Of a DNA stretch of 64,000 nt, positions 1 through 28,729 are shown in pieces (position 1 is the first letter of the stretch; each line of letters opens with the position of its first letter). The notes beneath the pieces are model-generated. The model was not told where the DNA came from, ran no database searches, and saw only the letters and a program-made list of their open reading frames with translations. This DNA is from Bremia lactucae (lineage: Eukaryota; Oomycota; Peronosporomycetes; Peronosporales; Peronosporaceae): contig NC_090612.1 of NCBI RefSeq assembly GCF_004359215.1, positions 6,189,546 to 6,253,545 of the forward strand, written 5' to 3'. Made by a program: the position numbers and the translations under genes.

Positions 1-211
1 ACCATGCAGATCTCTCAAGAACCGCTTAGATTCTAGGGTTGGTAATTGAGTTATCTCCGAAGTTAACTTCGGAGGCGCATACAGATCAAGAGTAGAAGCG
101 CCTACTCTTGACCGTTATTTACCAAGACATTTAATGTCTCGATTTCTTCCTGGGATTTATCCACAGGCTGCCGAGGGAATTAATATCTCGGGATGTAGAA
201 GTCTAGTAACT

Positions 212-1039
212 TCAACTATTTTGAGGAGATTTCTGCTCAAGTACGTGGGGACCTCTTCCCTCAACGTCTTCCGAATGTGATTGCGCTATCACAGTCGGGT
301 CGTCTACGGTCGACTCTCTACTCGACCTAGGATCATTGTGTCGTCCCTTTGGGGCAACCGGTATACTCCTTGAATGTCGCCCGCTAGGCGTACATTCATG
401 TCTCAATCCACTCGACCTCTTCGAGTGGTGGACCTTCGGCGCTGCCTGTGCATTAACACAGCCGCCGACAGCTGACTCCACAATGTGATTAGTAATCAAA
501 CTGAGATCTTGTGCAGTCGTAATAACGACCGTGCCACAAGTGAGGCCATCGCACTCACTCGTAGTACATCCACACGCTTGTGGACGCTCCAAGACGTTCA
601 TCAGATGGCCATCTGATGAACAAGTGGCAGGCATCTTTACGGATCGATGCTGCCAGCTGATCCTTGGCTCGTATTTTCTGAGCCAAGGTAAATAAAGGAT
701 GACATCAAATTTATCATCTAAATCCAGTACGATGAAATCATCATCGTACTGTGAATCTCTTAACGTGTAGTGAAATTTCACTACCGGTTTCATTACTGTT
801 ATCGATGCGCCTGTCGCTAGACGCACCGTCATCCTCGTTGGAGGGATGTCGCGCTCAACATATTTGAGCCTACGACCCTCTAGTGACTGGCGACGAATAA
901 AGTTATTCGACGCTCCGCAGTCCGCTAGGGCTCCGAGTGACAAATCATTTGTCACTTTTAACTTCAAGGTGATGAGGGATAACTCATCACCAGGTGCAGA
1001 GACACATAATGATTGTGTGTCTGGAGCAACTTTTGTCAA
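212..1039 (-). CDS. Retropepsin-like aspartic protease domain of A1 polyprotein
   Basis: This is an open frame of 275 codons inside the gag-pol region, not an independent gene. The active-site motif reads ADCGAS, a DCGA variant of the usual D-S/T-G-A, near residues 40-45. A second conserved block, FDVILYLPWLRKYEP, follows about 70 residues later. That block matches the flap and C-terminal part of retropepsin-like domains in gypsy elements. The protease would release capsid, RT and integrase from the polyprotein. The C-terminal third is a low-complexity spacer rich in Ser, His and Arg that leads towards RT. The frame is intact here but gag upstream is broken. Confidence 0.8.
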   Translation of the reverse strand: MTKVAPDTQSLCVSAPGDELSLITLKLKVTNDLSLGALADCGASNNFIRRQSLEGRRLKYVERDIPPTRMTVRLATGASITVMKPVVKFHYTLRDSQYDDDFIVLDLDDKFDVILYLPWLRKYEPRISWQHRSVKMPATCSSDGHLMNVLERPQACGCTTSECDGLTCGTVVITTAQDLSLITNHIVESAVGGCVNAQAAPKVHHSKRSSGLRHECTPSGRHSRSIPVAPKGRHNDPRSSRESTVDDPTVIAQSHSEDVEGRGPHVLEQKSPQNS

Positions 1040-1347
1040 GAGATTTGCAAATTCTCTTGAAGTTGCTGGATCGGTAGGGCGTTGCGCCCCTACTGACCCT
1101 GTCCATTTTTTGGCGGTCCGCCTCGCTGTTGCGATTTCGCAACAACGTTGGATCCGCGACCGTTGCCCTTATTGGCATACGGTCCAAAATTACGTTCAGT
1201 ACCTTTCGGTGCTGGGAGCGGGGCACTACACTCATGAGCGTAGTCTCCTAACTTTTGGCTTTGATGGCATTTCTGCGATCGCTTATTGCTCGAAAAGCGA
1301 GGTCTCTCGCTTTCGACGTAAGAAAGGTCCTTGGGTTCTGGACCTCC

Positions 1348-2246
1348 TCACTCGTGTCGTCTTGGAGGACGAAATGATGACGAACTAGCTTGAGCCTGTC
1401 TGAAGCTAAAGTCCTCCTGTTCCGCAACAAATATTGCTTCTTCAAGCATATCCAGTTCCAAGCGGAACAGGCGGGTCTTTATGAGACCGTCCGTAAGACC
1501 TTGCATGAACACCGTAATCAACGTGTGTTCATGGACTGGGTTATTTGTAATACAACTCGCAAAGAGTCGTATGTGCTGGGCATATGCGTGAACATCATGC
1601 TTGCCTTGCTTGAGTTTCAAAAGCTTTGAACGAGCTCTGAACTCAGCCCTTGGCGGCTTAAACGTCTGTTTGAGCCGGGCTTTAAAAGCCTCTAGCGACC
1701 TAAAGACGTATGGGTCGCCCAACTAAAGACCCAATGCCCAAGTTTTGGCACGACCTGCCAAATTTGATTGAGCAAATGCGACTTGAATTTGCTCGCGACG
1801 ATGTGACGTGCCCTTATGGCATCGTCCAACTCGACAAACATCTTAAGAGGGAGTCTTCTTCGACTCCCCTATACTAAGAGATGTCAATCTTTAAAGTTTC
1901 GAGACGACGCGTTTGCGTCATCCCAGGTACAGGTATCTGTACCTGTTGTTACCTCAACAGTTCTGCCTGTTGAGAGCCTTGCTGATTCAGCAAGGCAACT
2001 TTACCTTTCATCTCGTCAAGTTCATGTTGTATGAACTTGGCGATGGCTGAATGGAAAGCATCTCTGTCCAAATTGGACAGCATTGCCAAGATTGCATCGT
2101 TTTCTACGGTCGAACTCATTTGTTCGACCGCACTCTTTTCTATGTCACTTAGAAATGAGTAGCTTTCACGGGATACGTGATGCGTATTCCCACTATCATC
2201 TCACATGTCCATGTTAGATGTGGAAAATGTGGTCCTTGGACGGACT
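1348..2246 (-). pseudogene. gag of A1, broken
   Basis: The minus frame at 1348-1722 encodes the central gag block: DPYVF, EAFKARLKQTFKPP, the arginine-rich EFRARS stretch, then MQGLTDGLIKTRLF. This is the Retrotrans_gag arrangement of chromovirus-like Ty3/gypsy elements. Upstream, 1723-2246 carries the N-terminal gag in pieces, separated by an in-frame stop near 1724 and frameshifts. Gag would form the particle and bind RNA through the zinc knuckle, which is itself mutated in this copy. Confidence 0.75.
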
Positions 2247-2262
2247 ACAAAGTGCTACCAGG

Positions 2263-2712
2263 TGTAACGGGGCACTACGACTTGTACTGCTTCAGTACAA
2301 GTCCACTTTGCACTACTTCAGTTGCGAGTGGTGCCTTACGTTATTTCACTTACACTAGTATGTGCAGAGGAAGACTTCTGTTTAAGGTAACTAGGTTAAA
2401 GAGGGTAAAATGAAAACTGTAATAATATAATTAAGTATCTCTTTTTCTATCTTGTGAATGCTAACTTAATTATAAACTAATTCTAAACATGCAATTGAAT
2501 TCTTATCTTTTCTTATCTGTATCTCTCTTTTGTTTACATCTACTGATTAGTCTGCGGAATAAACAGATATAATGGTCTATACCTATTTATGGATAAGAAT
2601 TCTGAATATTACTATAAAAAGTAATATTTTCCAAATATTATCTTCCTTTTAGATAATATATCAATTAACAACCTTCAAATGTTAATTTCATGTAACGATA
2701 CACCCCGTTACA
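2263..2712 (-). repeat. LTR of Ty3-A copy A1
   Basis: The 450-bp LTR begins (minus strand) TGTAACGGGGTG at 2712 and ends GTGCCCCGTTACA at 2263. The two ends form a 10-bp perfect inverted repeat, longer than the usual TG..CA. A second internal CGTTACA close to the 5' end makes the first 22 bases self-complementary. Two bases beyond the gag-side end is a primer-binding-like stretch, TGGTAGCACTTTG, also seen in A3. Confidence 0.9.
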
Positions 2713-5531: not shown

Positions 5532-6487
5532 TGTTCATGATTAGAAATACAAAAATTTACCATTCATTAATTGAAGGGCAAGTCCGGTGTGTTCCACCAA
5601 GAGTGACGATGCGTCAGAATTCTTGGCGCTGCTGAAAGGAATATCATAACGTCTGGACAGGCTTGAGAAGTCGCAGACAAGGATTGAAGAAGAAAGGGAA
5701 GGGCGTGTGAGGTACGGGGGCACATCCATGAGTCCGCCTGTGAACCTGAGTTTGTGTTTGTCGTCACCAGGAAGGGACACAAGAATGCACATGGACAGTT
5801 TAAATGGATCGTCTGTCACGCCAGTGATTAATCCGCCTAAATTTAGCGACCCAAGTATGAATGTAATTTCAAACTTGCTCAAGGACCTGGAGCTCGTGGC
5901 ATGATGCTTAATAATGGCAATTATGGCAATTTGCCCGATCAAGGTCCAACTTTAAATAATCAAGCATATGGACACAGAGTACAAGTTAGATACCCGGATG
6001 CAAGGCAAAACAAAACTCGGTATTCGGCCTTTCGATGGACGCGAACTGTAAGAAGGTCTCGGTTCCGGTGTTTTGGAATGGAGTCGAAGATTCGAGCGAC
6101 AGATTTCTATGGCTGTAGATTTGAATGGCCGGATGTGAAAGTGGATGTATCTCTCTGGCCCAACAGAAAGATATTACAACAGGCAAGTTGTGATGTGGTG
6201 GAATCCGATACCTAGTTTGGAATACGTAATGGGAAAGATGCAGGAAGCATTTAAGACAAACATCACGTCGGCCCAAGCAATAAAGATTTTCACGAAGAAA
6301 GGACACCAAGAGGGGTTGGCCAGAACATTACCTGTACCTGAAGGCCATCTTGGAAGTTTGCGGAAATGATGGTGACTCTTTGGGCTTGGATACTGTCGTA
6401 CAGTACGCTTCGGAAGGATTGCGAACTGTTCTGTTGGCCAAGGTAGACCATATACGAACTGATTCCCTAATTCAGGCGGAGCAACTT
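5532..6487 (+). pseudogene. gag core of E1, frameshifted
   Basis: Short open pieces in changing frames carry gag-core features: PPKFSDPSMNVISNLLKD near 5840, WNPIPSLEYVMGKMQEAF near 6200, then a KIFT motif, and VVQYASEGLRTVLLAKVD near 6400. The pieces are in colinear order but separated by frameshifts. The last piece runs straight into the 3' LTR at 6488. Confidence 0.6.
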
Positions 6488-6869
6488 TGTAGGCGGGCAC
6501 GTCGTAATGCGACCACGCTCTACTTAAGCACACACCCTAGCACAGCGAGGAAGCGATTAAACCTGCTTCTCTTGCGTGCAGTGAGGTAGTTGTGGTGGGC
6601 GCGCAAGCGGCCTCACCCAACACACTAGGAACTCTGGTAAAGTGTCGTCACGGGAGCGGTAATCCGTCTCCTCGTGCGCACTTACCAAGTAGGTAGTAAA
6701 TTTCAGACTGATTTAAATTTAATATAATTAAATACAAATATCTATTTTTACCAATTAAAATGTTATCTCAATAGATATCATTTAATATGTATTGCGAGCG
6801 TATCTTTATAGATACCTCGCGTAACTGATGACGCTAGCCGTCATCCTCCTAATGTGAATGCACCCATGT
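6488..6869 (+). repeat. 3' LTR of E1, interrupted by gap
   Basis: Sequence matches 3797-4287 from its TGTAGGCGGG start for about 380 bp and then enters the run of N. The outer end and target duplication cannot be read. Confidence 0.8.
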
Positions 6870-6969
6870 NNNNNNNNNNNNNNNNNNNNNNNNNNNNNNN
6901 NNNNNNNNNNNNNNNNNNNNNNNNNNNNNNNNNNNNNNNNNNNNNNNNNNNNNNNNNNNNNNNNNNNNN
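6870..6969. other. Assembly gap (100 N)
   Basis: Exactly 100 undetermined bases, the usual scaffold gap placeholder. It falls inside an LTR, where short-read assemblies commonly break. Confidence 0.99.
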
Positions 6970-7408
6970 GGCCTGTGGTGTCCTCTTCTCCGAAAAGGCA
7001 ACGCCATATCTGGTTTACTCGTGTGCACCGCGAACAATGTTGAGTCGTTGGTGCTTTGCCATCTGGTGCTATGCTTCACCGCGCGCGGATTTCAGAGGGT
7101 ATGAGTACTATTTTGGGTTGTCGTATTTACGCCGAACGACTGTAGGGGTTTCATTTCCTGATTTTTCCTGCCGTGAATATTTGTAGCAAGCTCGGGGATA
7201 ATAAAGCTTTTAACACTCGCTCTTTTGCCTCTTTTTGTGTGTTTGCGTTCTACTTTTCACAGGTTATGAGCCCAAAGCGTGCGGATGATAAGGGCACTGC
7301 GTGCGACGGCTTGCACGCGAAAGGATCCCCCGCCACCGGTCACGAAAAAGCCGTTGACGAAGAAGATCACGAAGAAAAAAGCAAACATGTTGAAGTTCAT
7401 GCGGTGGA
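6970..7408 (+). pseudogene. Second E-type gag copy, cut by Ty3-A insertion
   Basis: This repeats the leader and the start of the E1 gag (ATG at 7266, MSPKRADDKG, then the HEEKSKH tract). Similarity ends at GTGGA (7404-7408), immediately before the A2 LTR. The gag frame reads on for eight codons into the LTR. GTGGA is the candidate 5' half of the A2 target-site duplication, but a matching 3' copy was not found. Confidence 0.7.
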
Positions 7409-7745: not shown

Positions 7746-7747
7746 TA

Positions 7748-8575
7748 GCGGAACAAGTTGGTCTTTACAGGACCATCCGTAAGACCTTGCATGAACACCG
7801 TAATCAACGTGTATTCATGAATTAGGTTGTTTGTGATACTACATGCTAAGAGTCGTATGTGCTTGGCATAATCGTGAACATCACGCTTGCCTTGCTTAAG
7901 TTTCAGAAGCTCTGAACGAGCTCTGAACTCAGCCCTAGGCGGTTTAAACGTCTGTTTGAGCCGGGCTTTGAAAGCCTCTAGCGACCCAAAGACATATGGT
8001 TCGCGCAACTTAAGGCTCAATGCCCAAGTTTTGGCATGACCTGCCAAATTTGATTGAGCAAATGCGACTTGCATTTGCTCGTCGACGACGTGACGAGACC
8101 TTATGGCATCGTCCAACTCGACAAACATCTTAAGAGGGAGTCTTCTTCAACTCCCCTATACTTAAAGATATCAATCCTTAAGGTTTCGGGACGACGCGTG
8201 TGCGTCATTTCAGGTACAGGGGTCTGTACCTTATGTAACATCAACAGTTCTGCCTGTTGAGAGCCTTGCTGAATAAGAAAGGCTACCTTCTCCTTCGCCT
8301 CGTCAAGTTCATGTTGTATGAACTTGGCGATGGCTGAATGGAGCATCTATGTCTAAACCGGACAGCATGGCCAAGGTGGCATCGTTCCCTAAGGTCGAGC
8401 TCATTCGTTCGACCGCACTCCTTTCTATGTCACTTAGAAATGAGTAGCTCTCACGCGAAACGTGATGCGTATTTCCGTTATCATCTAACATGTTCATGTT
8501 AGATGATGGAACTGTGGTCCTTGGACGGACTACAAAGTGCTCAAGGTGTAACGGGGTCCTACTGACTTGTGCTGC
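7748..8575 (-). pseudogene. Inverted gag/LTR-end block of A2
   Basis: Here gag reads on the minus strand although the rest of A2 is plus. From 8575 downwards it holds the end of the LTR, the primer region, the gag N-terminus (LDDNGNTHH, IERSAVERMSS) and the gag core (DAIRSRHVVDEQMQ, EAFKARLKQTF, MQGLTDGPVKT), ending at CTTGTTCCGC near 7748. The plus-strand gag resumes at 8578 with the codons that should follow. The minus frame at 7634-8128 is therefore a chimera of gag and antisense LTR. Confidence 0.8.
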
Positions 8576-8577
8576 TT

Positions 8578-9735
8578 GTGGAACTGGATACGCTTGAAAA
8601 TGCAATATCCGTTGCGGAACAGGAGGACTTTAGCTTAGACAGGCTCAAGCTAGTTCGTCATCGTATCGTCCTCCAAGACGACACGATTTGGGAGGTTCAG
8701 AACCTATGGACCTCTCTTATGTCTGAAGCGAGAAACGTCGCTTTTTGAACAACAAGCGATTGCAGAAATGCAATATAAGCCAAAAGTTAGGAGACAAGGC
8801 TCATCAGTGCAGTGCCCCACGCCCATACCGAGAGGTACAGAACGTATTTATGGACCGAATGTCAAAAGAGGCAACGGTCGCGGGTCCGACGTTGTTGCGA
8901 AACCCCAACAGCGAGGCGGATTACCAAAAAACGGTCGGGGTCATTAGAGGCGCAACGCCCTACTCATCCAGCAACCTCAAGAGAGTTTGCAAATCTCTTG
9001 ACGAAAGTTGCTCCAGACACACAATCATTATGTGTCTCTGCACCTGGTGATGAGGTATCCCTCATCACCTTGAAGTTACAAGTGGCAAATGATTTGTCAC
9101 TTAGAGCCTTAGCGGACTGTGGAGCGTCGAATAACTTTATTCGCCGCCAGTCGCTAGAGGGTCGTAGGCTGAAATATGTTGAGCGTAACATCCCTCCAAC
9201 GAGGATGACGGTGCATCTAGCGACAGGCGCATCGATAACAGTAATACAACGCGTAGTGAAATTTTTACTACACGTTAAAAGGTTTAAAGTACGATGATGA
9301 TTTCATCGTACTGGATTTGGATGACAAATTTTATGTCATCCTGGGTTTACCTTGGATCAGAAAACATGAGACAAGAATCAGCTGGCAGCATCAATCCGTA
9401 AAGAGGCCTGCCACTTGTTCATCAGATAGCCATCTGATGGCCGTCTTGGAGCGTCCACAAGCGTGTGGATGTACTACGAGTAGTGCGATGGCCTCATTTG
9501 TGGTACAGTCGTTATTACGACTGCACAAGATCACAGTGTGATTACTAACCACCCTGTGGAGTCAGCTGCCGGCGGCTGTGCGAATGCACAGGTAGCGCCG
9601 AAGGTCCTTCACTCGAATAAGTCGAGTGGATTGAGACATGAATGTCCACCTAGCGGACGACATTCAAGAAGATACCTGTTGTCCAAAATGGACAACACAA
9701 TGATCCTAGGTCGAGTAGAGAGTCGCCCGTAGAGG
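8578..9735 (+). pseudogene. gag tail, zinc knuckle and protease of A2
   Basis: The gag tail runs to a zinc knuckle near 8765-8810 that keeps the first and last Cys but has Ser for the second Cys and Lys for His. The protease follows with ADCGAS (Asp codon at 9114-9116). A frameshift near 9280 moves the second half, GLPWIRKHE, to another frame (9317-9541). The stretch 9004-9376 is identical to 26548-26920 including this frameshift. The region is also the clearest example of hairpin tiling. Confidence 0.8.
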
Positions 9736-9848
9736 ACCCGACTGTGATAGCGCAATCAAAGTCGGAAGACGTTGAGGGAATAAGTTCCCACGTACTTGAG
9801 GATAAAACTCCTCAAATAGTTAATGCTGAAGTGACTAGACTTCAGCAT
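8978..9848 (+). other. Hairpin-tiled segment of Ty3-A pol
   Basis: Short inverted repeats follow one another through coding sequence. Examples (arm 1/arm 2): 8978-8984/8994-9000, 9015-9021/9031-9037, 9046-9055/9060-9069 (10-bp stem, 4-base loop), 9128-9133/9138-9143, 9288-9297/9303-9312 (10-bp stem), 9319-9326/9334-9341, 9420-9427/9432-9439, 9454-9459/9464-9469, 9506-9512/9517-9523, 9610-9616/9622-9628, 9677-9684/9690-9697 and 9823-9832/9839-9848 (10-bp stem). Arms are perfect complements. Consecutive starts are often 31-37 bases apart. The role is unknown. Confidence 0.85.
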
Positions 9849-11045
9849 CCCGAGAGATTTATTGTTCGGCAGCCTGTAGATAAATCTCAGGAAGAAACCG
9901 AGATATTGAATGTTTTGGTTAATGACGGATCAAGAGTAGGCGCTTATACTCCTGATCTGTATGCGCCTCCTAAGCTAACTTCGGAGATAACTCAATTAGC
10001 AACCCTAGAACTCAAGCGGTTCTTAAGAGATCTGCATAGTGGTAGAATCAAGCAGATCTGCCTTCTCGTCACAGAGGACGAATAGATGACCGATATTCGG
10101 TCGGGGGTAATTTTTCCATAGAACGTATGGGTTCTCAGCAGCTCATCGATGGACGAAAGTGTTCTCGACGTGAAGACTCGGATTGAGAGATGTACTACTC
10201 AATTTCCGGAGTCACTTAAGACAAATCCTTTATACAAGGATTTGATTGAATTCAGGGATGAATTCCTTGAAACAGCTCCATGCGAGTTGCCAAAGGATAA
10301 AGGCACTCGACAGGAGATCGAGCTCAAACCGGGCTCGAAGTACTGTGTCTTGAAGCAGTGGCCACTTCCTCGTGAACAAGTACTTGTGATCGACAAATTC
10401 TTTATCGATCGAGTAAAAGCGGGCCATGGAAGGGAGTCAACCTCCCCACATTCTCCGACCTTCTGTGTGCGAAAAGCCACAGGAGGGTGGCGGATACTGC
10501 ACGCATTCAACAAACTGAATGCTGCAACAGTACCGGCTTAAACGCCGATACCTAGAAAAGACGTAATCATAGATGGTATGTCTAAGAGTACGATCTTTTC
10601 GTCTATGGATCTGATGGATGGGTTCTATCAAATCCTTATGCGTGAACGGGACATCCCGTACACAGCAGTGAGCACTCCCAGTGGGATGCTCTGGGAATGG
10701 CTAGTAATGCCATATGGGGCTTAGTGCAACATTCGATAGATGCGTAACGAATCTGTTGAGACCGGTGCGAGAATTCGCTCTGAGTTATTAACGGTGTATT
10801 CGTCTATAGCCGGACTTATGACGGAAAGACGGACGTGGGAGTTCCTTAAAGTCACGTTTATTCTAAAGCATAAGTTGTACGCAAATCTCAAGAAGTTCAT
10901 ATTCGCTGCAAGCGAAATACCACTTCTTGGGTGCAACGTCGGTAAACACGGCGTGCGCCCTGATCCCGAAAAGATCAAGGCATTTACCGATGGTCAGTTC
11001 CAGTCGATGTCAAGGGACTTGGAAAGTTCCTGCGTATTTGCATAA
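9744..11045 (+). pseudogene. Reverse transcriptase of A2, broken
   Basis: A protease-RT spacer (9744-10085) leads to the RT N-terminus at 10149-10541. That part holds the SPTFCVRK..GGWRI and NKLNAATVPA blocks, followed by a TAA stop where the other copies read CAA. The SSMDLMDGFYQI block is near 10610 and the TAVSTPSGMLWEWLVMPYG block near 10690. The stretch that encodes YFDDVF in A3 is altered here by a frameshift and substitution near 10790, so the catalytic aspartates are lost. KHKLYANLKKFIF and the connection region follow to 11045. Confidence 0.8.
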
Positions 11046-11099
11046 GTACTTCCGCAATTATGCCGAGATGACAGTTCATCTCTCTTGTCTTTGAAAAAA

Positions 11100-11340
11100 A
11101 GACGATAAAACGCTATGGATCGCCGATTGTCGGCATTCCTTCGAAGGTATCAAGCAAAGCTTGATGCAATCGCCCATCTTCGCGATTGCAGATCAAGACA
11201 GACCATTCCATGCCGACCCGATTTCGAGCCGGCTGCGCGTTCCAACAGTGAAAATAATCCCACTGTTGCAACACTCATTTCAAGTGTTCTGTCATCAACC
11301 TTGTTTGATGACTTAAAAAAAAGCCTACGAAGAAGATAAG
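11100..11340 (+). pseudogene. RNase H remnant of A2 with internal deletion
   Basis: Compared with A3 (28730-29242), sequence passes from the start of the domain (PFH, near 11209) directly to its end (RPDFEPAA equivalent). About 340 bp carrying the DASDFAIG, HDKE and YTDH catalytic blocks is missing. The junction shares a few bases (CATGC/CGCCG context), consistent with microhomology deletion. Confidence 0.75.
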
Positions 11341-11346
11341 GGTCCG

Positions 11347-12260
11347 TTGCGTTTATTGGATTATCAGATAAATGCATCCGATAATACTTTTTTAATATTT
11401 ACCGGCTTTATATCGATCGTCATCCGATCGATACACAACACGCAACGGCATATTGTATTTCACAGCCCTTGCAGGCGACACTCCATCCCAAATCCCAATG
11501 ATTTGCGCTTGCGCATCATGTATGAGCGTCACGATGCACCAATAACTGGGCATCGTGGACGTGAGAAAACTTAACTCACAGTAAGTCGCGACTTTTATTG
11601 GCCCCGCCAGTATCAGTTTATGCGCAAGTACGTTCGTGCTTGCGAAGTATGTCAACGGGTGAAGCCCAGCCCTTCATCCCGTGCACCTCTCCAACCTCTA
11701 CAACTTCCAGCAGAGTGTTGGCAGTCCGTATCTGTGGACTTCGTCTTCGGATTTCCCGAAAACGACCACAAAAATAATGGAATCCTTGTTTTTGTAGACA
11801 GATTCAGCAAGATGGTGCACCTTGCTGCGGTACCAGAGTCGATTACGGCTCCGGGTTGTGCCCGTGTCTTTATCGACACGGTATTCAAATTCCACGGTTT
11901 ACTCCGTGAACTGGTCTCGGATAGAGATCCACCGTTATCGGCGGAGTTTGGCAATCCGTATTCTGATCTCTCGGAACACGGCTGACTATGTCAACATCCG
12001 ATCACCCAGAAACGGATAATCAAACAGCGTCCTCGAAGAGATACTTCGAGGTTACGTCCAATCGTATCCGAATTGGAGCGAGTTTTTACCGATGGTCGAA
12101 TTCGCCATCAATAATTCGGTGCATGCGTCTACAACGCATACACCGTTCTTTGTGAATGGCTTACGCCATCCTCGCATACCGACCCAATTAGAGGGATCCT
12201 CTAGTCTAAGGGGGGGGGACTCGCAGGAGCAAAACCAATTCTGGCTCATGCTCAACACGC
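11347..12260 (+). pseudogene. Integrase of A2, frameshifted
   Basis: The zinc-binding HHCC module is recognisable across 11521-11660 (H..H near GHRGREKT, then CEVCQR), split by a stop near 11574. The catalytic core at 11620-11985 has SVDFVFGFP with the first Asp, DRFSKMVH, and ELVSDRDPP with the second Asp. The expected third acidic residue lies past a frameshift. Conserved text continues near 12090-12170 (FAINNS.H..T..TPFFVNGLRHPR). It would insert cDNA into chromatin if intact. Confidence 0.8.
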
Positions 12261-12329
12261 GTCGAAAATAACAACGACGCGAGTGATGTCAATGTCGAAG
12301 AAAACGACATCGAAAATGAGATTGATCTC

Positions 12330-13350
12330 ATGGCAGTACGCACTAAGCGTACTGAAAAAGACAAAACAAATGAGTTAGCGGAAGAGTTTCTGCTAACTCG
12401 AGAATCAATTATCCGTTTCGTTCAGGATTCTATTGCTAACGCAGTGGACCGACAGAAATGGAATGCAGACAAACATGGAAGAGCAAATGTTAATTCATTC
12501 AAATTAATGATCTAGTGCTACTCTCTACGGTAAACTTACCTAAACGATTAGTCACTAATGTGGGTAGCATTAAACTACTACCCAAGTTCATTGGGCCTTT
12601 CCGTGTACTGCATCGAAGAGGCAATGCGTACACAATAGAATTGCGACGTAGGATGCGAACGCATCCTACGTTTTACGTTGGTCGGCTCCGGCCGTACCAT
12701 CAGTACGCGGCTTCTTCCGAGGACGGATTTGACCACTCTTTACAAGAATACCCAAAAGATTATTGTGATCGCGAACCAGATTTTCATGTTGAACCTGAAG
12801 TTTCTCAGGCCGGTTTCGAAGATCCTCGAAGCTACGATGAGCTGACGACAGCTCATCGCGGACAGCATGATACTTCCGCTCGTACTCCAACAAGGAGTAC
12901 GCACTCTTCGAACGGTCTTCCAACCGCTCGATATGGTGAGCCTGCACCGTCTGCTCCAACGAGCGACGCTTACCGCGCTCGTGGTCAAGTCCCTCCTCCA
13001 AATCATGGAGGAAGCGATCGAGTTTGTCGACCATCGACACTAGATCCGACACATGGGTCGGATTTAATTTTCACTCCTCCGCCACAACCATTGGTGAATT
13101 TCCAAGGCTGTCAACGTTTCCTTGTGGAACGTATACTCCGTGATGTGAAGGGGTAGCGAACAAGTTATCTTGTTCGCTGGTGCGGTTTACAACCTTCACA
13201 TGACAGCAGGGAGCCTCGTTCCCAGCTGGTTGTTGACGTTGAGAGCCTCGTCCGTCAGTATGACGAGACCCATCCAATGGATCATAAGGTCTATCAGAAA
13301 ACACGCGCCTCTGGCGCCTGTAAATCGATGGCAAAACGTCAATCTCATCG
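12330..13350 (+). CDS. Integrase C-terminus, linker and chromodomain of A2
   Basis: Frames at 12330-12515 and 12515-13156 encode the GPY/F-type integrase tail (LLPKFIGPFRVLHRRGNAYTI, RTHPTFYVGRLRPY), then a Pro/Ser-rich linker of about 130 residues. The chromodomain starts with RFLVERIL near 13110. A stop at 13156 interrupts it. The rest (RWCGLQP, EPRSQLVVDVESLVRQYDETH) reads in frame to about 13300. The chromodomain identifies a chromovirus, a lineage whose integrase is thought to be guided by histone marks. The linker overlaps the antisense frame at 12666-13052. Confidence 0.75.
12666..13052 (-). CDS. Antisense coiled-coil ORF of Ty3-A (copy A2)
   Basis: A clean minus-strand frame of 128 codons starts with MSDLVSMVDKLDRFLHDLEE. 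It has two heptad-like stretches (about residues 5-40 and 65-115, including LQVQHENLVRDHNNLLGIL) and ends in a basic segment, IRPRKKPR, that could be a nuclear signal. It lies opposite the sense linker between the integrase tail and the chromodomain. A homologous frame exists at 62688-63214 in A4, where it stays open further upstream (AEEEKLNPTHVSDL). Here a stop separates it from an upstream minus frame at 13071-13355. No expression evidence is available. Confidence 0.5.
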   Translation of the reverse strand: MSDLVSMVDKLDRFLHDLEEGLDHERGKRRSLEQTVQAHHIERLEDRSKSAYSLLEYERKYHAVRDELSSAHRSFEDLRNRPEKLQVQHENLVRDHNNLLGILVKSGQIRPRKKPRTDGTAGADQRKT

Positions 13351-13359
13351 CGCATCTCG

Positions 13360-13684
13360 ATAGAGATGCGAGCCCTTCCCCTGGATCACTGGTGACCCGG
13401 CGAGGACGCCGGAGGAGATCGCTGCCCGCGACGCTCTTCATGAGCATTACCTTACGCCGAAGGTAATGACGCGAAGCCAGTATCTGACGCGTTTACGTGA
13501 TCAAGCTTGTGGGGCTTCGGTGACCTGCATGAGAAAGATTCTGATCGTTTTGTTTCCAAACGAAACAAGGAGTGAAAACGAAGTCTCATTTGAGAACTGG
13601 GTTCACCGGGCCCGCAAACTCCGTAATATCTGGAATATCAGAGAGTCTGCGGATTAAGGTGAAGCTTCGCTTCGACTTCGCTAA
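13360..13684 (+). other. 3' region beyond A2 chromodomain
   Basis: A plus frame ends at 13657 (YLTRLRDQACG, then FENWVHRARKLRNIW). I do not recognise it. The stretch still shows hairpins, for example TTACCTTA..AAGGTAA near 13450, so it probably belongs to a retroelement. The exact boundary between the A2 3' side and the C1 3' side cannot be set. Confidence 0.35.
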
Positions 13685-14191
13685 GCTTTAGGCCAAAGGC
13701 CAGTTACGTTCAGCATTTATGCCACAAAACGAAGTAAGGCTAGCCGATATTTCAGTGCTACGGTTGACCGTACAACCAAGGATCGAAGCCGCACTGAGGC
13801 TTTAGATCCACCTAATCCCACGTTTAGTAGTGGGAAGCGACGTTTGACGCGAGTTGACCCTCAGCTTGGAGCTCAAAAATGTCAACGTTGTACGGGCAAT
13901 CTTGCCGAAGAGGTACCTCGAACTCCCAAGAGTTTTTGGAAGAGGGTTACCCTAGCCACTTCACCAGATACTAGTATTGACCCTCACGACGACGTCGCTT
14001 TAAAAGTTTCTCCACATGAAACTGAAGGTTTCCCCGCGCATCAAGCGGTGCGGGAGGGGGCCGAAATTTCGGCGGAAGCATTTGATGCTCAACGACACGA
14101 GGTGCAACTTCTTCGTGAGGTCCTTGCTCGGGTTGGGAGCTCTTTTGAGGCGGTTCGGGCGTCTTTCGCCGAAATCGCTTTTACCACGTAA
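13685..14191 (+). CDS. Antisense ORF flanking Ty3-C
   Basis: An open plus frame of 168 codons follows a TAA at 13682 and has no ATG at its start, so only a conceptual fragment is claimed. It contains a CxxC (QKCQRC), a Ser/Pro/Asp-rich middle, and near the end a heptad-like helix (AQRHEVQLLREVLARVGSSFEAV). It runs opposite in direction to C1 and just beyond the C1 integrase tail. That is the same relative place as the antisense coiled-coil frames of Ty3-A, -B and -D. A related frame continues in another phase to 14387. Confidence 0.4.
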   Translation, partial: ALGQRPVTFSIYATKRSKASRYFSATVDRTTKDRSRTEALDPPNPTFSSGKRRLTRVDPQLGAQKCQRCTGNLAEEVPRTPKSFWKRVTLATSPDTSIDPHDDVALKVSPHETEGFPAHQAVREGAEISAEAFDAQRHEVQLLREVLARVGSSFEAVRASFAEIAFTT

Positions 14192-14295
14192 AGAGGGCCA
14201 GTTGGATATCCTGGTGAGGATGCAACAATCTGCGGCACGACCGCCTGTCTCGGCGCAAGCGCCTTCAAGTCCAAGTGGGAAGGGTCCCGATATGG

Positions 14296-15560
14296 CTAAA
14301 GCAAGCCAACGTAAAACACTGGATGTGTACGCAGCTTGTTGGGAAGGTTTAGCGTATAAGCTAGGCCCTTCTTGGCCACGAACGTAAATGGTCCAATAAA
14401 GCGCGGGCGAAATTTGGTCTTGAAGACCGCGGATACCAAGTTGGTAGGTAGGTTCTTAGCGTTTAGTAAAACTCGGTCTCCGACCATATACGAATTAATA
14501 CAGTTTCTGCTTTTGGCATCTGCTTCTTGTTTTTGTTTGTCTTGGCTATCAGCCATCGTATCTCTTACATGTCTTAAGATACTAAATCGCGTCGCGAGAA
14601 ACTCGCTTACTTGTTTCCGAACGGTAACAGGGCTGATATCAGCAAGCCTATCGGCCGATTCTCCCCCACCAAGCCCTTAACCCTGCAGTGGTATCGTTAA
14701 TGGAACGCGCGGTTGGTAAGACCGTTTACATAGAACACAGTATAGCCTGTAGAGGCATGAACAGCGTCATTGAACGCAAACTCCACTACTGGGAGCATTG
14801 AGCTCCAGCGCTTTGGTGTCTGAGCACACACGCTGCGTTAAACGTCTTCAATGACGCGATTGACAAGTTCAGTTCGACCATCGGTCTGTGGATGGTCCGC
14901 AGTGGACATCTCCAATCTGGTTATAAGCACTCGGAAAATTGATTTCCAGATTTACCCGTAAAATCGGGGATCCCGATCAGAGATAATTGCCACTGGCAAA
15001 CCATGTTTTCGAAACACGCGATCGATGAACAGCTTAGCTGTACCGTCTCCATCAATGGAATCTGGCACGGCTGCTTAGTAAGCCATTTTGCTCAAACGGT
15101 CAACAAAGACCACTATACCGGAGTTACCGGCTGAATCTTTCGGTAGCCCAAAGACGAAATCCATACTAATGGACTCCCACAATCCTATGGGGACGGGAAG
15201 ACTCGCCAGTGGCGCAGCAGCATGTGTCGAGGGTTTAATCCGTTGGCACGTTTCGCATGTGCGAATATATGTGCTGACCCATTTTTAAAGTTTGGGCCAC
15301 CGACTCTGGCCTATGAAGCCGTAGGTCTTTTCTCAAGCGAGATGACCACCAAGGACAGTATCGTGTGCCTCATATTGGATCCGGTACTTCACCTCCTCAT
15401 CATGAGGAACAATGACACGCGGAGGGTCCGCGATGTTTGTGCAACAGGTTGTTATCGATAGAAATCGATGTAACCTTGCACGCAAACGTGCCGCCAATTT
15501 AATACCCAATTTGAGTCCTATAACGCTCGTAGCAGAGCTGCACACTGTTTATCCTTGGCG
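14296..15560 (-). pseudogene. Integrase of C1, decayed
   Basis: The zinc-binding module appears near 15333-15545 and core fragments near 15060-15200 in broken frames. The C-terminal frame at 14296-14556 is open: DKQKQEADAKSRN, YMVGDRVLLNAKNLPTN, then RPRFIGPFTFVAKKGLAYTL, ending THPVFYVGLL. This is the GPY/F-type tail. No chromodomain was recognised downstream. Confidence 0.7.
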
Positions 15561-15689
15561 TAAGCCGAACTGATTAATTCAGGAATAGGTGACGAGATAG
15601 TCGTTGAATGAGAATCTCATAATCCGGCCTGCGTGATAACGCGTCGGCCAAAGCATTTTGCTTGCCGGGCTTATACTTCACCACGAAGT

Positions 15690-16858
15690 TGGATTCCGCA
15701 AAAAAAGATAGTTATCGGGCCATTTTCTGTGAGAGATGGGGCGACTTAGTCGCCGTGCGCAATGATGTGTGATCTGTAAAAATCACAAACGGCTTAGAGC
15801 CGAGTGGATGACCTCTGAATTTGACGAGAGCATACTTCATAACAAGGAACTCTTTGTCATGAACTGGGTAGTTCTTTTCCGCAGCTTTAAGCTTTTTAGA
15901 CTCGAACGCAATAACACGTTGATGCCCATCAACATCTGTTTGTAACAGAGCACTGCCAATGGCAAAATCTGATGCGTCAAAGACGATACTGAAAGGCCAA
16001 TTTGGGTTTGGCAGTACCAGAATCGGGGCATGGATAAGACTACCCTTAACTGCTCGAAAAGCATTATTTTCGGTGCTAGTCCAGCACCATTCTATATCTT
16101 TCTTTAGGAGTTTAGATAATGGCCTAGCCATATCAGCGTAATTTTTGCTATATTTGTGTAAATAATTGGCGAGACCCAACCACTTAAGCAAATCCTTTTG
16201 GTTTTTAGGAACCGGCCAATCTACTATGGCTTTTACCTTAGCGGAATCGCTCTAAGGCATCGCTTTCCAATGAAGTTTTCTAAAGAAGGAATTTCGTCTG
16301 CGCCAAAAATGCATTTAGATGCATTGGCATACAATTTTTTTGTGCGCATGCATTCGAGCACTGCTCGCAAATGGTCTAAATGGTTTTCCATATCCGACCG
16401 ACCCTGCTCCGCACGACTATGGACAAAAATGTCATCGAAATAAGTCTGTGCATAACCTCGATGAGGGCGAAACAGTTGCGTCACTAGACGATTAAATGTT
16501 GCCGGGGCGTTGGAAAGCCATTGTGGAAAACCAGCCACTCCCATTACATGCCGCTTTGGGTGCTAACCGCTGTAAGCGGGATATCACTAGCTCGCATAAG
16601 CACTTGGTAGTAACCATTGACTAAGTCCAATGCACTGTACATTGTACATCCCACCATATTGTTCTAAAGAACATCTTTTCTAGGAATGGGGGTTTGGGCT
16701 GGTATAGTGGCAGCCTTAAGCTTATTATAAGCATGTACAATGCGCCATTTACCATTTGGCTTTTTGACACAAAAATGTCGGTGTCGAATGAGGAGATTTG
16801 TTCTCTCGTAACATTTCAGCCTCGTGCTTTGCATGGAAGAAATCGTCAATGACGTCAC
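15690..16858 (-). pseudogene. Reverse transcriptase and RNase H of C1
   Basis: The RT N-terminus is at 16664-16858 (FCVKKPNGKWRIVHAYNKL). The palm with the catalytic TYFDDIFVHSR lies in the frame 16233-16544. RNase H is at 15712-16191 (VFDASDFAIGSALLQTD, HDKEFLVMKYAL, FTDHTSLRT). All catalytic blocks are visible, but three frames are needed and a stop or frameshift separates each, so no functional enzyme is encoded. Confidence 0.8.
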
Positions 16859-17661
16859 ACTGCTCCTTTGGTAAAAGCCATTGTTCTTGTGACACAGTAT
16901 TTGGTTCCCATTACTAAGTCAATTTCATGATGAACACTTCTATCCGGAGCTAAAACAGATGGTGGGTTATTACATACCTTATCTTGGAATTCCTTAATTA
17001 AGGAATAAAAAGGATCCGTAGGATCTTCCAGGATCGGTGACCCATTTCGCGCACAAAGTGCACCTTTTGTGTCATCCAGGACAGCTTCGTCTAGAAGTGA
17101 CGATGAGTTTAACTCAACCATAGGTCGAATGACCATCATTTCAGATAAGTCACCAGTTTTTAAGACTCGACCGCACTCATCAATAGACATTTCGTCTAGC
17201 TCTAAAAGAGCATGTAACGAGAGGATTGCCGCAAGGCTTACTTCCCCCTCAATGTTACCGGTTACGCCATTTACAAGCGTATGTACTTGCTCACTCGTAT
17301 CACTTTGTGAGGGTATACACGCTTCGTGTCCATCCTGTCTTGGAGTGAAGATGAAGACAATACGCCTTTTAGAGGCCGGGACATTCACGTCCCCAGGGTT
17401 TTCAGCCTGTATTGGTTCTATACAAGACATGGTGTCTAATTTGACATCCGATAAAGAGTTAAAAAACTCAACTTCCTTATCCAGCGAACGTTTACGTGTC
17501 GCCTCACGTGCATTAGGAGGATTTGACCCAAAATGCCCTGGCGAACCGCCAATAGTGTCACTATTGACACTTAGGATGGTGCCACCTCGGCCGACCATAC
17601 TCGGTGGACTTAGACGTGCCACTCCACGTATCTCAGGGATATTGCACGCTGCTTTCAGCAT
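16855..17661 (-). CDS. Protease-RT spacer of C1 polyprotein
   Basis: A long open frame (268 codons) begins within the protease-RT spacer and ends where RT begins. It is acidic and disordered in character. A recognisable block, SLIKEFQDKVCNNPPSVL, is followed by the HHEIDLV..TKYCVTR lead-in to RT. The same spacer, truncated, lies at 58760-59458. No enzyme activity is expected in this part. Confidence 0.6.
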   Translation of the reverse strand: MLKAACNIPEIRGVARLSPPSMVGRGGTILSVNSDTIGGSPGHFGSNPPNAREATRKRSLDKEVEFFNSLSDVKLDTMSCIEPIQAENPGDVNVPASKRRIVFIFTPRQDGHEACIPSQSDTSEQVHTLVNGVTGNIEGEVSLAAILSLHALLELDEMSIDECGRVLKTGDLSEMMVIRPMVELNSSSLLDEAVLDDTKGALCARNGSPILEDPTDPFYSLIKEFQDKVCNNPPSVLAPDRSVHHEIDLVMGTKYCVTRTMAFTKGAV

Positions 17662-17679
17662 TTAGTGAATCGTTAGTAT

Positions 17680-18380
17680 AGCGAGTGTTACTCGACGAAG
17701 TACGTGCCGTTTTACTTATTTCTGCTCAGTCGGGCTCAAAATTAATGTTTTTAACATTAGAGTTTATTAACTCAGACATGCCAATGTCTAAAACAGTGAC
17801 AGACTCATTCTTGGTATGGCCTGGCTAGAACATCATGAACCGAATTAGTAATATTTATTGTGAGGAGTAGCTTCTCCAGACAAGCTATTGATAAGCCTTT
17901 CTGGCAAAAGCCACGGCTTCTTTTCAGGGGCGAGATGAGACATTTTACTGTCTTCACTCCCCTGACCGTGGATCAATTGGAAGTCTAAGACCTTAGGCGC
18001 CACGCGCAATATTCCTAGCAAAGTTTTGGAGAGTCATGGACCCACCTTTGCTAGGCAACAAATGAGATCATATCTCGAATCCAAATCAAGGACGAGACAG
18101 CGTTCCATACTGTCAAAGTCCAGAAACTTTATACCTAAGTTCAATGGAACTTTGGGAACAGTGACCCGAGTCCCTGTCCCTAAGCAAACAGTGTTATTGT
18201 ATTATCTCCATGCGCTCTAAGTACCTCCACGTATTGTTGATTTCCCTCAATAGAAAGGCGTCGAGCATAATTGCAAGACACTCCTGAGTCAATTAAAATT
18301 GACCACGGCTTACCAAAGCCCTTTACAATCGAAATGAGCACCAAGCTAATTGGGGCAAGGTTCTATTTATTCTCACCTCC
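17680..18380 (-). pseudogene. Protease of C1, broken
   Basis: A minus frame near 18250-18320 reads WSILIDSGVSCNYARR, a canonical D-S-G aspartic protease active site. Downstream the frame breaks within about 40 codons, and stops are dense to 17680. A fragment of this region (about 17860-18060) recurs near 55.33 and 63.77 kb. Confidence 0.6.
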
Positions 18381-18427
18381 TTGAGGTTTAACCGAGCCTA
18401 GGTCTTCCCCAGAAGGGCGCCCCGCAT

Positions 18428-19446
18428 CTACTGGGTATCGACGTTTCCCCGCACCGTACCAGATCTCTGGTATAGGTCGGAGTTGGAGCTCTTTCGGGCT
18501 TTACGCAAATTTCGAAGTGGGCAGGCAGGGCGTAAATGTTTCGTGCATTCGCGCACATAACATCTACGGATGGTCTTATGCTGTTCCACAGCTTGAAGAG
18601 CCTCTTCTCCTTCCTCAACGAGGCTTATAAACATAGGTTCCGCTCTATTAGACGGAACCCATGTGCTCGAAGAGCTTGTTCGGTAAACAGGCGTGCTAAC
18701 GCGGGCAGACTTAAAGTCAAAGTCGGCGCGTAGCGCTATGGCAACTGCCTCTTCGAACGTAGCCGGATGAGATCGGAACAATTCCGTCCGGGCAATGCCT
18801 TCATTGAGACCCCCCATAAAAAAGGTCACTACAATTGCCTCTTGCACCGGGTCTTGATGCATAGATGCAATGAGAGTTCTCAACTCCTGGACAAAGACCC
18901 CCAGGGTTCTTTTACCCTGCCGAGTCGCTAGGAGTCGTGCTCGCATGCAAAAAGCCTGATCAGGCGGTGCAAACATGCTGGTCACTTGCTGTTTCAGCGA
19001 ATCCCATGAGGGGAAAGCGTCGTTTATGGATGTGCTGCACATTAATGCCCACTCTATGGCTCTACCTCCAAGTTTGGACATGGCCATAGCCACATTTGCC
19101 TTTCTGGTAAGAACAAGACGTAATCAATGGACATTTCCATTTGCTCAATTCAAAAAGGGAGATTTTCTCCCTCTTTTCCCTCATTTTTTTTTACATTTAC
19201 AGTTAGAGGGCGAGCCCTCGGCTCTGAGTCAGGTACGGAGATGTACCGGGTAGGCATAGATGCCGCTAAAGGGTCCTGTACCTGACCGATCAGGGAGGCT
19301 TTGTACCGCATGAAAGCTTCAAGCCTTGCATGCAGGACCTCTGGTCCCTGGGAAATAATAAATTCCACGTGCTCAAGCCCGAATAAGATTTTGAGCTTGT
19401 CATAAGCGGCGCGTTGCGCTTCTGACAATTCTGGAACCTCTTTCAC
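18428..19446 (-). pseudogene. gag of C1
   Basis: Two frames, 19150-19446 and 18428-19093, hold colinear gag. The first has an N-terminal segment ([19 protein letters not shown]). The second has the core (GGRAIEWALMCST, FPSWDSLKQQVTSMFAPPD, LLATRQGKRTLGVFVQELR, FFMGGLNEGIARTELFR) and a Cys/His-containing tail (RRCYVRECTKHLRPACP) resembling a divergent knuckle. A frameshift separates them near 19100. The QGKRTLGVFVQELRTLI core is a typical Retrotrans_gag signature. Confidence 0.75.
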
Positions 19447-19506
19447 TGTCGTAAAAAATAAGTCTTGTAAAGACTCAGGCGTAGGTTGACTACGAGTGCT
19501 ACCAGG

Positions 19507-19991
19507 TGTAGCGGAGCTATCACGCTCCTAAAGTCAGAGAAAGACTCTCAGACTCAGAGAGTCACTTAGTTCTATTGAGCTTATGGGTTTAACAACTCTG
19601 GGAGTCGTACATGCTATTAAAGCTTAAGGAATCCTAGTTCAAGGGATTCAGGGGTTCGTAAAGCCAAGTGGCAACTAGTGCCCAAGAGGATATACCTTAG
19701 AAAGGCTTCTATCTCTTACAAATCAATGCGCAAGCCTTAGGAAGGCACTTAACGCTTTAAGATCAATGAGGAACTGCACTTTATTTAATTATTTAAATCT
19801 AAAAACCTTACCCTAGCTAATTTAAAATAGATTTCGGCCCCAGATTTATATCTGGCGGCGACCACATAATTATTGCCCATATTTAATGGGATTTAAGCAA
19901 CTAACTATTTTAAAATTAGATAAAGGGTATTTTACCCATTTAGTAAATGTACCACAACAACGGTTCTCCAACCGATGTGTGCCCCATTACA
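19507..19991 (-). repeat. LTR of Ty3-C (C1)
   Basis: This 485-bp LTR starts (minus) TGTAATGGGGCACAC at 19991 and ends GCTCCGCTACA at 19507. Related copies are a solo LTR at 51337-51782 and a fragment at 54986-55295, both plus. Confidence 0.85.
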
Positions 19992-20041
19992 CTATCAGCT
20001 TAAAGACATGAACTTTCCCTAGTGACCCTGCCAGTTTAGCA

Positions 20042-20461
20042 GTGGTCAATAAAACTACGTCCTATGACCGACCTCTCGGCGGTATCATAGGCGAGTTTGA
20101 TGCTAAAAGCGTGAGCGAGGCTCAACGCTTTTTGATTAAGCGATTAGCCATCACACGAAAAGTCCGTGACGAGATGGCAAGCGCACAGGACAAGCAAAAA
20201 GAATATGCTGACCGAAATGGTCTCAAAATTAACGAACGCTTTAAAGTGGGTGAAAAAGTACTATTAAGTATTGCTACCCTACCTAAAAATGCAATTTTTG
20301 TACTACCTGGAGGTACTACGAAGTTGTTGCACCGTTTCATTGGGCCCTTTAAGGTGGTAATAGAGGTTGGTGACTCAAATTATAGGCTCACCCTTCCCTC
20401 GTATATAAAGACGCGCCGTATTTTAAGTGGGTCGTCTGAAACGGTATGTAGACTCAAATGA
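20042..20461 (+). CDS. Integrase C-terminal fragment of family Ty3-D
   Basis: This 139-residue frame has VSEAQRFLIKRL, then DKQKEYADRNG, the VGEKVLLSIATLPK strand, and HRFIGPFKVVIEVGDSNYRL. It is the GPY/F integrase tail of a gypsy family distinct from A, B and C. The integrase core is absent; sequence upstream is the C1 LTR. A second copy with a frameshift lies at 57.96-58.27 kb. Confidence 0.7.
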   Translation: MVNKTTSYDRPLGGIIGEFDAKSVSEAQRFLIKRLAITRKVRDEMASAQDKQKEYADRNGLKINERFKVGEKVLLSIATLPKNAIFVLPGGTTKLLHRFIGPFKVVIEVGDSNYRLTLPSYIKTRRILSGSSETVCRLK

Positions 20462-20522
20462 GCCTCATACCCCCATTCGTCGAAGAAGACGATGGTGACG
20501 CCGACTGTGAGTCTAGCGGCGA

Positions 20523-24732: not shown

Positions 24733-24939
24733 TGTAATGGTGTTTCCGTTTCATAAATATTATTTTCGGTAAGAGGAATAATAAATACGATTTCCTTTAA
24801 GAGAAAATCAATAGATTTTTTGGTCTTTTATCAAATTCGACTTAACAGTTCCAATATTACCAATTTTGGTAATATTGACGCGATAAGACAGTGATTCTTT
24901 TAATTGGTTGATTTTAGTTTGAATCAACCGATCTACACG
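24733..24939 (+). repeat. LTR fragment of Ty3-B
   Basis: It starts TGTAATGGTGTTTCCG and matches the first 200 bp of the LTR at 30709, then is cut by the A3 LTR at 24940. ACACG (24935-24939) would be the target duplication. Confidence 0.75.
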
Positions 24940-25377
24940 TGTAACGGGGTGTATCGTTACAAGAAAATTAACACTTTAAGGTTGTTAATTGTATATTATC
25001 TAAAAGGTAGAGAATATTTGGAGAATATATCTTTACGTGGTAATTTCCTAAAAGCTTATCTATTGGTAGATATACACCATTATATCTACTTTCTCCGCGG
25101 TCCAGTCAGCGCTGGACGCACGCAAAAGAAAAAGACAGATAAGACTTCATTACATGTTTTGTATTAGTTTAAAATTAATTTAGTACTTAATAGACAGAAG
25201 CAGAAGAACTTAATTATATTAAATACGGTTTTATCAACCTCTTTTAAGCAAGTGCTATAAAGAGAGTCTTCCTTTGCACGTACTAGGTGCGTGAACTGAC
25301 GTGAGGCACCACTCGCACCGAGGCAGTGCGAAGTGGACTTTTATTGAAACAGTACAAGTCAGTAGTGCTCCGTTACA
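24940..25377 (+). repeat. 5' LTR of A3
   Basis: A 438-bp LTR from TGTAACGGGGTG to GCTCCGTTACA. It includes the AT-rich U3 and the GCGGTCCAGTCAGCGCTGG block shared by A2. Confidence 0.9.
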
Positions 25378-25379
25378 CC

Positions 25380-28630: not shown

Positions 28631-28729
28631 TGCCGAGATGACAGTTCATCTCTCTCGTCTCTTGAAAAAGACCAAAAATAGTTACGGAACACTGATTGTC
28701 AGCGTTTCTTTGAAGGTATCAAGCAAAGC

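Follow-up and report, generated by a model that had tools for sequence, protein, structure and literature searches.

Ty3 elements and host genes in the window

The window, that is, the whole 64,000-nucleotide stretch of contig NC_090612.1 of Bremia lactucae that was analysed, contains several Ty3/Gypsy LTR retrotransposons alongside a block of host genes, among them an eRF3 gene whose product is 100% identical to a B. lactucae protein. The element class was assigned from RVP_2, RT_RNaseH, SH3_Tf2-1, Retrotrans_gag and chromo matches and from the LTR pair of Ty3-B. The region at 8978-9848, where regular hairpins had been noticed in the initial annotation, is part of such an element, which shares 84-88% identity with the copy at 26 kb and with pieces at 1, 55 and 59 kb.

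1-2712, minus strand: Ty3-A fragment
7747-13384, plus strand: Ty3-A copy, with hairpin excess in 8579-13384
13500-20000, minus strand: Ty3-C element, with stems of 5-7 bp and loops mostly of 3-4
24733-31194, plus strand: mosaic Ty3 copy, A-like in its 5' part (25402-29812) and matching Ty3-B at 82% in its 3' part (29813-31008)
34398-40873: host genes (methyltransferase, eRF3, RFC-type AAA and two more ORFs), used as control
42865-50861, minus strand: Ty3-B element, with LTRs at 42865-43179 and 50543-50861 that are 81% identical
55367-57084, minus strand: Ty3-A fragment (pol side at 55367-56270, gag segment at 56281-57084)
59458-63398, plus strand: Ty3-A copy, with a chromodomain ORF at 62884-63447

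An 830-base gag segment (7747-8577) of the Ty3-A copy at 7747-13384 is inverted relative to the copies compared, and a search for an inverted match of at least 7 between 50-base stretches at both junctions of this inversion found none. The bin at 6001-7000 contains 100 N, probably an assembly gap, which inflates its hairpin count.

Across the 115.9 Mb of genome searched, a first look gave 3396 candidate places for Ty3-A, 2795 for Ty3-B and 1855 for Ty3-C, all unscored at that stage; scoring 40 of the Ty3-A candidates yielded 45 alignments, most about 90% identical. Locus L007 and the places G000:C14:1290350-1292178 and C1:10963808-10964892 are adjoining tandem or inverted pieces of one element region. 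For Ty3-C, all 40 scored places among the matches listed, the window copy included, were identical over 801 and over 696 bases, and its reading frames are interrupted; this seems to reflect either a very recent spread of an element apparently unable to code for itself or an assembly effect. An RNase H tree of six rows separated A and B from C, L077 and L078 (six other rows were too short, and B fills 42% of the columns). Protein relatives of the element exist in Phytophthora and Peronospora, and no DNA relatives in other oomycetes were found in the viral contigs and genome contigs searched.

Short perfect hairpins in the protease region and beyond

The proposal that perfect inverted repeats tile the Ty3-A protease region was borne out by counting: with a perfect stem of at least 6 and a loop of 3-10, region 8978-9848 holds 14 hairpins against 1.4 expected, a number reached by none of 100 Markov sequences. 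Seven of the nine starts originally noted (8978, here 8977, and 9015, 9046, 9288, 9319, 9420 and 9454) prove to be perfect, pairing 6-10 bp around loops of 4-9, and those near 9081 and 9253 are imperfect in the window copy, as listed below; the latter can also be read there as a perfect 5-bp stem with a 9-base loop. All hairpins below lie on the plus strand.

8977-9001, plus: stem 8, loop 9; one G-C pair of A is A-T in B
9015-9037, plus: stem 7, loop 9
9046-9069, plus: stem 10, loop 4; 7 pairs form a B stem
9080-9102, plus: 10 pairs, loop 3, one G-U in the window copy; perfect in L003
9128-9143, plus: stem 6, loop 4
9253-9271, plus: 7 pairs, one G-U in the window copy; perfect in L003, L006 and L008
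9288-9312, plus: stem 10, loop 5, in the C-terminal protease coding part; 9 pairs form a B stem
9319-9341, plus: stem 8, loop 7; 7 pairs in B
9420-9439, plus: stem 8, loop 4; 9-pair B stem at 9417-9442
9454-9469, plus: stem 6, loop 4
9506-9523, plus: stem 7, loop 4
9576-9591, plus: stem 6, loop 4
9610-9628, plus: stem 7, loop 5
9677-9697, plus: stem 9, loop 3
9796-9815, plus: stem 7, loop 6
9823-9848, plus: stem 10, loop 6

The pattern had also been said to continue outside the protease region, and it does. Hairpins are present in RNase H, and the excess runs through Ty3-A and Ty3-B, where it was found in the leader, gag, protease, RNase H, integrase side and 3' internal part. Ty3-A stretches of the window carry 9-17 hairpins per kilobase, against 0-4 in the host stretch at 34-42 kb. 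In the copy at 24733-31194 hairpins exceed expectation 8-12 times in the gag, protease, pre-RT and RNase H parts, with a smaller excess across the conserved RT core (4 vs 1.2 expected). Every internal part of Ty3-B is in excess, including presumed non-coding parts (15 vs 1.2 in 43180-44029; 5 vs 0.9 in the leader), and the LTRs contain few hairpins (5 vs 0.9 and 2 vs 0.6 in Ty3-B, and 3 vs 0.9). The four hairpins noted in Ty3-C are also present, those at 15740-15754, 15918-15933 and 15935-15949 by computation and that at 15418-15432 by reading the sequence; at 20000-20700 the Ty3-C excess is gone (5 vs 4.2 expected).

Contrast with host genes and other retroelements

Synonymous-codon shuffling abolished the pattern, confirming the suspected link to codon choice. 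The seven Ty3-A ORFs carry 4 to 17 hairpins against 0.8-2.5 after shuffling, and their counts were reached by 0, 1, 0, 1, 0, 1 and 0 of 200 shuffles; for three Ty3-C ORFs the corresponding numbers were 0, 5 and 14 of 200. Host genes had been described as free of the pattern, and this held for four of the five host ORFs, which lie within chance, but not entirely for the RFC ORF, which is mildly high (4 vs 1.1); 175, 47, 5, 200 and 200 of 200 shuffles reached the host counts, the 5 being those of the RFC ORF. The excess is matched neither by synonymous or dinucleotide shuffles and Markov controls nor by host genes. The Ty3 group in B. lactucae has several to about ten times more short perfect hairpins than chance, and the adjacent host genes do not.

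Eight Ty3-A loci contain 47-64 hairpins per 3.87 kb, compared with 4-16 in the 30 best RVT_1 loci and 4-17 in 30 Copia loci, mostly per about 3.7 kb, where the excess is weak relative to expectations from two Markov sequences each. The Ty3 RNase H model has no match in any of the 30 RVT_1 loci (L009-L038), and an endonuclease domain, as in LINEs, is present in two of the four inspected for it; this set serves as a control from other retroelements rather than from Gypsy. Its member L025 shows a mild excess (16 vs 6.7, with an energy excess of 12%).

Among five Ty3 relatives, taken as 2-kb pieces, the hairpin excess is graded. Enrichment for stems of at least 6 and at least 5, respectively, was 3.4- and 2.0-fold in L077, 2.4- and 1.6-fold in L078, 1.5- and 2.2-fold in L080, 1.3- and 2.7-fold in L081, which is 91% identical to Ty3-C, and 1.1- and 1.6-fold in L083. 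The excess of predicted folding energy in these loci was 6%, 35%, 7%, 19% and 15%, the L078 value (35-37%) coming from four fragments; the value for L079 comes from two. Locus L082, with no Ty3 RNase H match, gave 0.5- and 1.8-fold and an energy excess of 0%.

Predicted folding energy

In 350-nt fragments compared with dinucleotide shuffles, three Ty3-A copies showed folding-energy excesses of 35, 31 and 37%, Ty3-B 24% and Ty3-C 13%, against about 1% (0.9%) in host genes, 2.5% in five RVT_1 loci and 2.2% in four Copia loci. Predicted energy in the Ty3 elements therefore lies well under that of dinucleotide-shuffled controls across coding sequence. Most of the hairpins form in predicted 1.5-kb folds of four A copies (16/17, 21/22, 20/21 and 22/25), and the fold predicted for Ty3-C contains 11 of its 26 short hairpins.

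Stem and loop geometry

Geometry is characteristic of each family. Enriched stems measure 6-11 bp in A and B, with one longer stem in B, and spacers are enriched at about 1-12, most at 3-10 and hardly above 20. Ty3-C has 104 stems of 5 bp (34 expected), 27 of 6 bp (8.7) and 10 of 7 bp (2.7), with none of 8 or more, and 81 of these 141 have loops of 3 or 4; L080, L081 and L083 likewise show a larger excess at 5 than at 6 bp. A third architecture is seen in L078, which is related to C, repeats one stretch (at 1-552 and 1154-1735) and folds strongly via long interrupted stems rather than short perfect ones. Spacer 0 was found twice in A (1.1 expected) and 15 times in B (6.2), counts for spacers 0-2 being inflated by runs of N. 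Sense-strand loops are A-rich (0.35, 0.32 and 0.32 in A, B and C), enrichment increases with stem G+C, and by eye there is no GNRA or UNCG loop preference and no common sequence in loops or stems.

The regular spacing of 31-37 bases reported at the outset stands for one 2.7-kb stretch (8579-11212) and not beyond it. With a non-redundant set of shared stems of at least 5 over 2.68 kb, the best period was 34.0 nt (n = 66, z 5.1, 0/1000 random placements), falling to p 0.028 for stems of at least 6 and p 0.07 for stems of at least 7. Gaps of 28-40 nt number 23 of 52 against 14.6 expected (p 0.009), and the overall spread of gaps equals random (CV 0.56 vs 0.56). The 34-nt period is absent from the integrase part, the gag part and the window B copy (z -1.4, 0.5 and -1.0), and a host stretch gives z 2.6 (stems of at least 6, 22 hairpins). 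Pooled period tests on other loci include near-identical copies and are not independent.

Pairing strictness and strand symmetry

Pairing in the hairpins is nearly strictly Watson-Crick, most clearly in Ty3-C, which provides the cleanest test because its 40 scored matches listed are identical and so carry no private decay. Among its 5-bp stems with loops of 3-4, perfect stems number 81 against 13.4 expected (6.0-fold), those with one inner G-U 28 against 18.5 (1.5-fold), with one A-C 26 against 19.8 (1.3-fold) and with another defect 86 against 78.7 (1.1-fold). The difference persists at equal predicted stability, where one-G-U stems are enriched about 1.4-fold and Watson-Crick stems about 8-fold (between -4.5 and -1.5 kcal, 11 vs 8.0 and 44 vs 5.2 expected, respectively). 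Among the 8-pair helices shared by A copies, 50 are perfect, 6 mixed, and those with one defect have G-U in 15, A-C in 24 and another mismatch in 26.

The hairpins are also strand-symmetric: no difference between sense and antisense folding was seen for A, B, C, L077 and L078 (p at least 0.26). An apparent sense advantage in A (p 0.012, from five related copies) was not reproduced (p 0.61) and was set aside. The expectation for a sense RNA, with G-U tolerated and the sense strand folding better, finds its one echo in a small sense lead of G-U stems, whose enrichment on the sense and antisense strands was 1.69 and 1.28 in C, 2.64 and 2.22 in A, and 2.36 and 2.08 in B; below -4.5 kcal, one-G-U stems of Ty3-C numbered 10 on the sense strand (3.2 expected) and 4 on the antisense strand (3.1).

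Sharing between copies and compensatory changes

Ty3-A copies aligned over 2.68 kb have 55 stems of at least 6 bp common to 60% of copies, 27 of them of at least 8 bp and the longest perfect one of 11 bp. B copies have 18 shared stems, of which 13 have pairs in common with A stems. When A stems were read in B, 294 pairs were unchanged and 16 had changed on both sides and were still Watson-Crick, compared with 1-6 such changes when the partner was slid by 1-3 columns; one-sided changes gave 17 G-U, 26 A-C and 29 others, with 41 gaps. For A and B stems together, 318 of 420 comparable pairs were the same, 19 were compensated (16 transitions, 3 transversions), 10 were other double changes and 73 were one-sided (19 G-U, 29 A-C, 25 other). 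One-sided changes had no arm bias (26 in 5' arms, 36 in 3' arms). Pairs were oriented AT 209, TA 169, GC 181 and CG 183 in A, and GC 146, CG 120, TA 151 and AT 136 in C. Three C hairpins followed by eye into L081 included one unchanged and two with a mismatch.

In the hairpin at 10763-10782, the loop of W8, W26 and L006 appears in L008 as its exact reverse complement, all four bases being changed while the stem is preserved; the inverted loop occurs in L008 alone among 11 aligned copies. Inversion-like loop pairs were found in 7 of 56 stems, against 4 and 3 in two null classes, L008 being the sole clear inversion and the remaining cases single- or few-base changes.

Effect on the encoded protein

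Residues in RNase H stems depart from the family no more than residues outside, and the RNase H protein has a hairpin potential of 47 per 100 aa, compared with 46 (sd 9) in 75 homologues. Stems somewhat avoid the codon register in which third positions pair with each other and first with second (3-3/1-2; 11 of 52). Conservation of stems at third codon positions was absent in pol, with p 0.05 in the protease and p 0.005 in parts with no assigned frame.

Origin of the hairpins

The hairpins look more like the product of a DNA strand copied from its own fold than like ordinary selected RNA structure. The account that we prefer, and hold tentatively, is that fold-back (template-switch) copying, filtered by protein selection, writes short perfect inverted repeats into Ty3 elements. 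The process would be strand-symmetric and tied to these elements, the likely step being fold-back template switching while reverse transcription proceeds: growing cDNA would fold at a short chance hairpin, copy its own first arm for a few bases and rejoin the template, turning a quasi-palindrome into a perfect stem. Protein selection would then retain the events allowed by codon choice or tolerant residues, a step suggested because the RNase H hairpin potential is about that of homologues and stem residues depart no further from the family. The observed stem and loop limits may reflect a fold-back geometry that varies by lineage, and the very strong predicted RNA folding could be a by-product, possibly a useful one. 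Arms that are Watson-Crick and change on both sides are what template switching leaves, and such arms are seen in the Ty3 elements. Near-strict pairing, above all in Ty3-C (6.0-fold perfect vs 1.5-fold with one G-U), strand symmetry in both defect classes and folding, the clear loop inversion in L008, the 19 compensatory changes between A and B, the excess in presumed non-coding parts, and spacers of about 1-12 rather than above 20 without an evident GNRA or UNCG preference all argue for such copying. Against it stand the rarity of loop inversions, the lack of arm bias and of the consistent pair orientation predicted in PMC8794818 (C leans that way), stems without raised amino-acid departure, the 73 of 420 pairs that differ on one side only, the slight advantage of G-U stems on the sense strand and the 34-nt period confined to one stretch, together with enrichment rising with stem G+C, which also fits selection for stability, and the energy excess that L078 attains through interrupted stems. 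More guardedly, we propose the broader reading that an LTR retrotransposon clade may, cycle by cycle, be rewriting its own genome through self-templated copying into closely packed perfect hairpins, with lineage-inherited stem and loop geometry and with use of codon freedom inside functional genes.

The initial annotation had suggested an ordered RNA structure, and its counterpart here would be selection for genome-wide folding of the element RNA, hiding the transcript from silencing or sensors or serving Gag assembly. The extreme predicted folding (31-37% in A, 24% in B), the formation of most hairpins in the folds of four A copies, the compensatory changes, stems placed at no cost to protein sequence with one codon register somewhat avoided, A-rich sense loops, enrichment growing with stem G+C, the slightly higher enrichment of G-U stems on the sense strand and the 34-nt period of 8579-11212, which suggests order, would all suit it. 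Nonetheless we consider this explanation only partly supported and rather unlikely, as one-G-U stems are far less enriched than Watson-Crick stems at equal stability, sense folds are no better than antisense, and in Ty3-C just 11 of 26 short hairpins enter the predicted fold; G-U tolerance is thus weakly seen and a sense advantage not seen, and the G-U and strand tests disfavour sense-strand RNA selection as the sole cause. Somewhat less likely still is that hairpins are selected in single-stranded cDNA, whichever the strand, where they might for example compact or protect it or cause pausing during reverse transcription. Since its target is DNA, stricter Watson-Crick pairing and an effect on both strands would follow, as observed, and the spacer range is that of true hairpins and the Ty3-C excess ends near 20000; on the other side, it lacks a precedent that we could name, and the period does not hold generally. 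Selection acting on folded RNA or on cDNA keeps a real probability. The proposed role as Dicer substrates is not supported, as shared perfect A stems stop at 11 bp and C has none of at least 8 (loops 3-11). Palindromic protein-binding sites or inserted mobile palindromes, the latter known inside Rickettsia genes (as cited in PMC6649704), are very improbable given that spacer 0 is not enriched in A, that no common loop or stem sequence is apparent by eye and that the hairpins sit within alignable coding sequence. Base composition, codon usage or chance has a negligible claim: only the mild excess of the RFC ORF would fit it, and dinucleotide and synonymous shuffles, Markov controls and stems common to copies refute it for A and B.

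RNA-fold selection and templated hairpin mutation, which are hard to separate, meet here in one set with a strong signal and clean host controls, and with candidate places that run to thousands in a single genome. Should copying be responsible, retroelements would have a mutational force strong enough to mould codon choice across kilobases; should selection be responsible, these coding RNAs would rank with the most structured on record, their fold being strict about Watson-Crick pairs.

Comparison with known systems

Searches of a library of open papers, some of them aimed at hairpins or ordered structure in retroelements or Bremia, listed no report of this feature, and a term search of the main Bremia genome paper (PMC6570648) returned neither 'hairpin' nor 'palindrom'. 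Mitochondrial genes of Nematomorpha carry coding palindromes, counted from 15 bp upwards and with a mean of 43 bp (PMC6649704). As in the Ty3 elements, many perfect intragenic inverted repeats have arms encoding conserved protein and hairpin-like spacing, and template switching is likewise named as a possible cause. In contrast to those mitochondrial repeats, the Ty3 stems lie in nuclear LTR retrotransposons, number many per kilobase, have family-specific stem and loop limits and are only 5-11 bp long; no shared perfect A stem approaches 15 bp.

Genome-scale ordered RNA structure in RNA viruses offers a second likeness, with a high energy difference across coding RNA and hundreds of consecutive stem-loops (PMC7642675). 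The highest folding-energy excess recorded there for vertebrate RNA viruses is 23.4%, with about 15% in SARS-CoV-2 and 7-9% in hepatitis C virus, so the Ty3-A mean of 31-37% is larger, both being based on dinucleotide-keeping shuffles of 350-nt fragments and on different programs. Unlike those of the viruses, Ty3 hairpins are strand-symmetric and poor in G-U, and their stems are partly conserved between A and B, whereas stem positions are described as poorly conserved in the viruses. Satellite tobacco mosaic virus RNA, 1058 nt long, contains 30 helices of 9 bp, or one in every 35 nt or so (PMC3551766), a spacing near the 34-nt period of the one Ty3-A stretch; this is an encapsidated viral RNA of known structure, whereas the Ty3 period is not general and Gag binding is hypothetical, and to link these figures to Gag assembly on Ty3 hairpins would be speculation.

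The closest mechanistic parallel in our preferred reading is template-switch mutation. In yeast genes, template switching gives arm homogenization and spacer inversion, for example extending a 4-bp arm to 11 bp (PMC8604942). By this process (PMC8794818, PMC8604942), imperfect stems become perfect, also in coding genes, pairs are restored on both sides and loops can invert, as in the one clear Ty3 case in L008. Those events are scattered, however, whereas the Ty3 elements are saturated throughout and loop inversions among them are rare.
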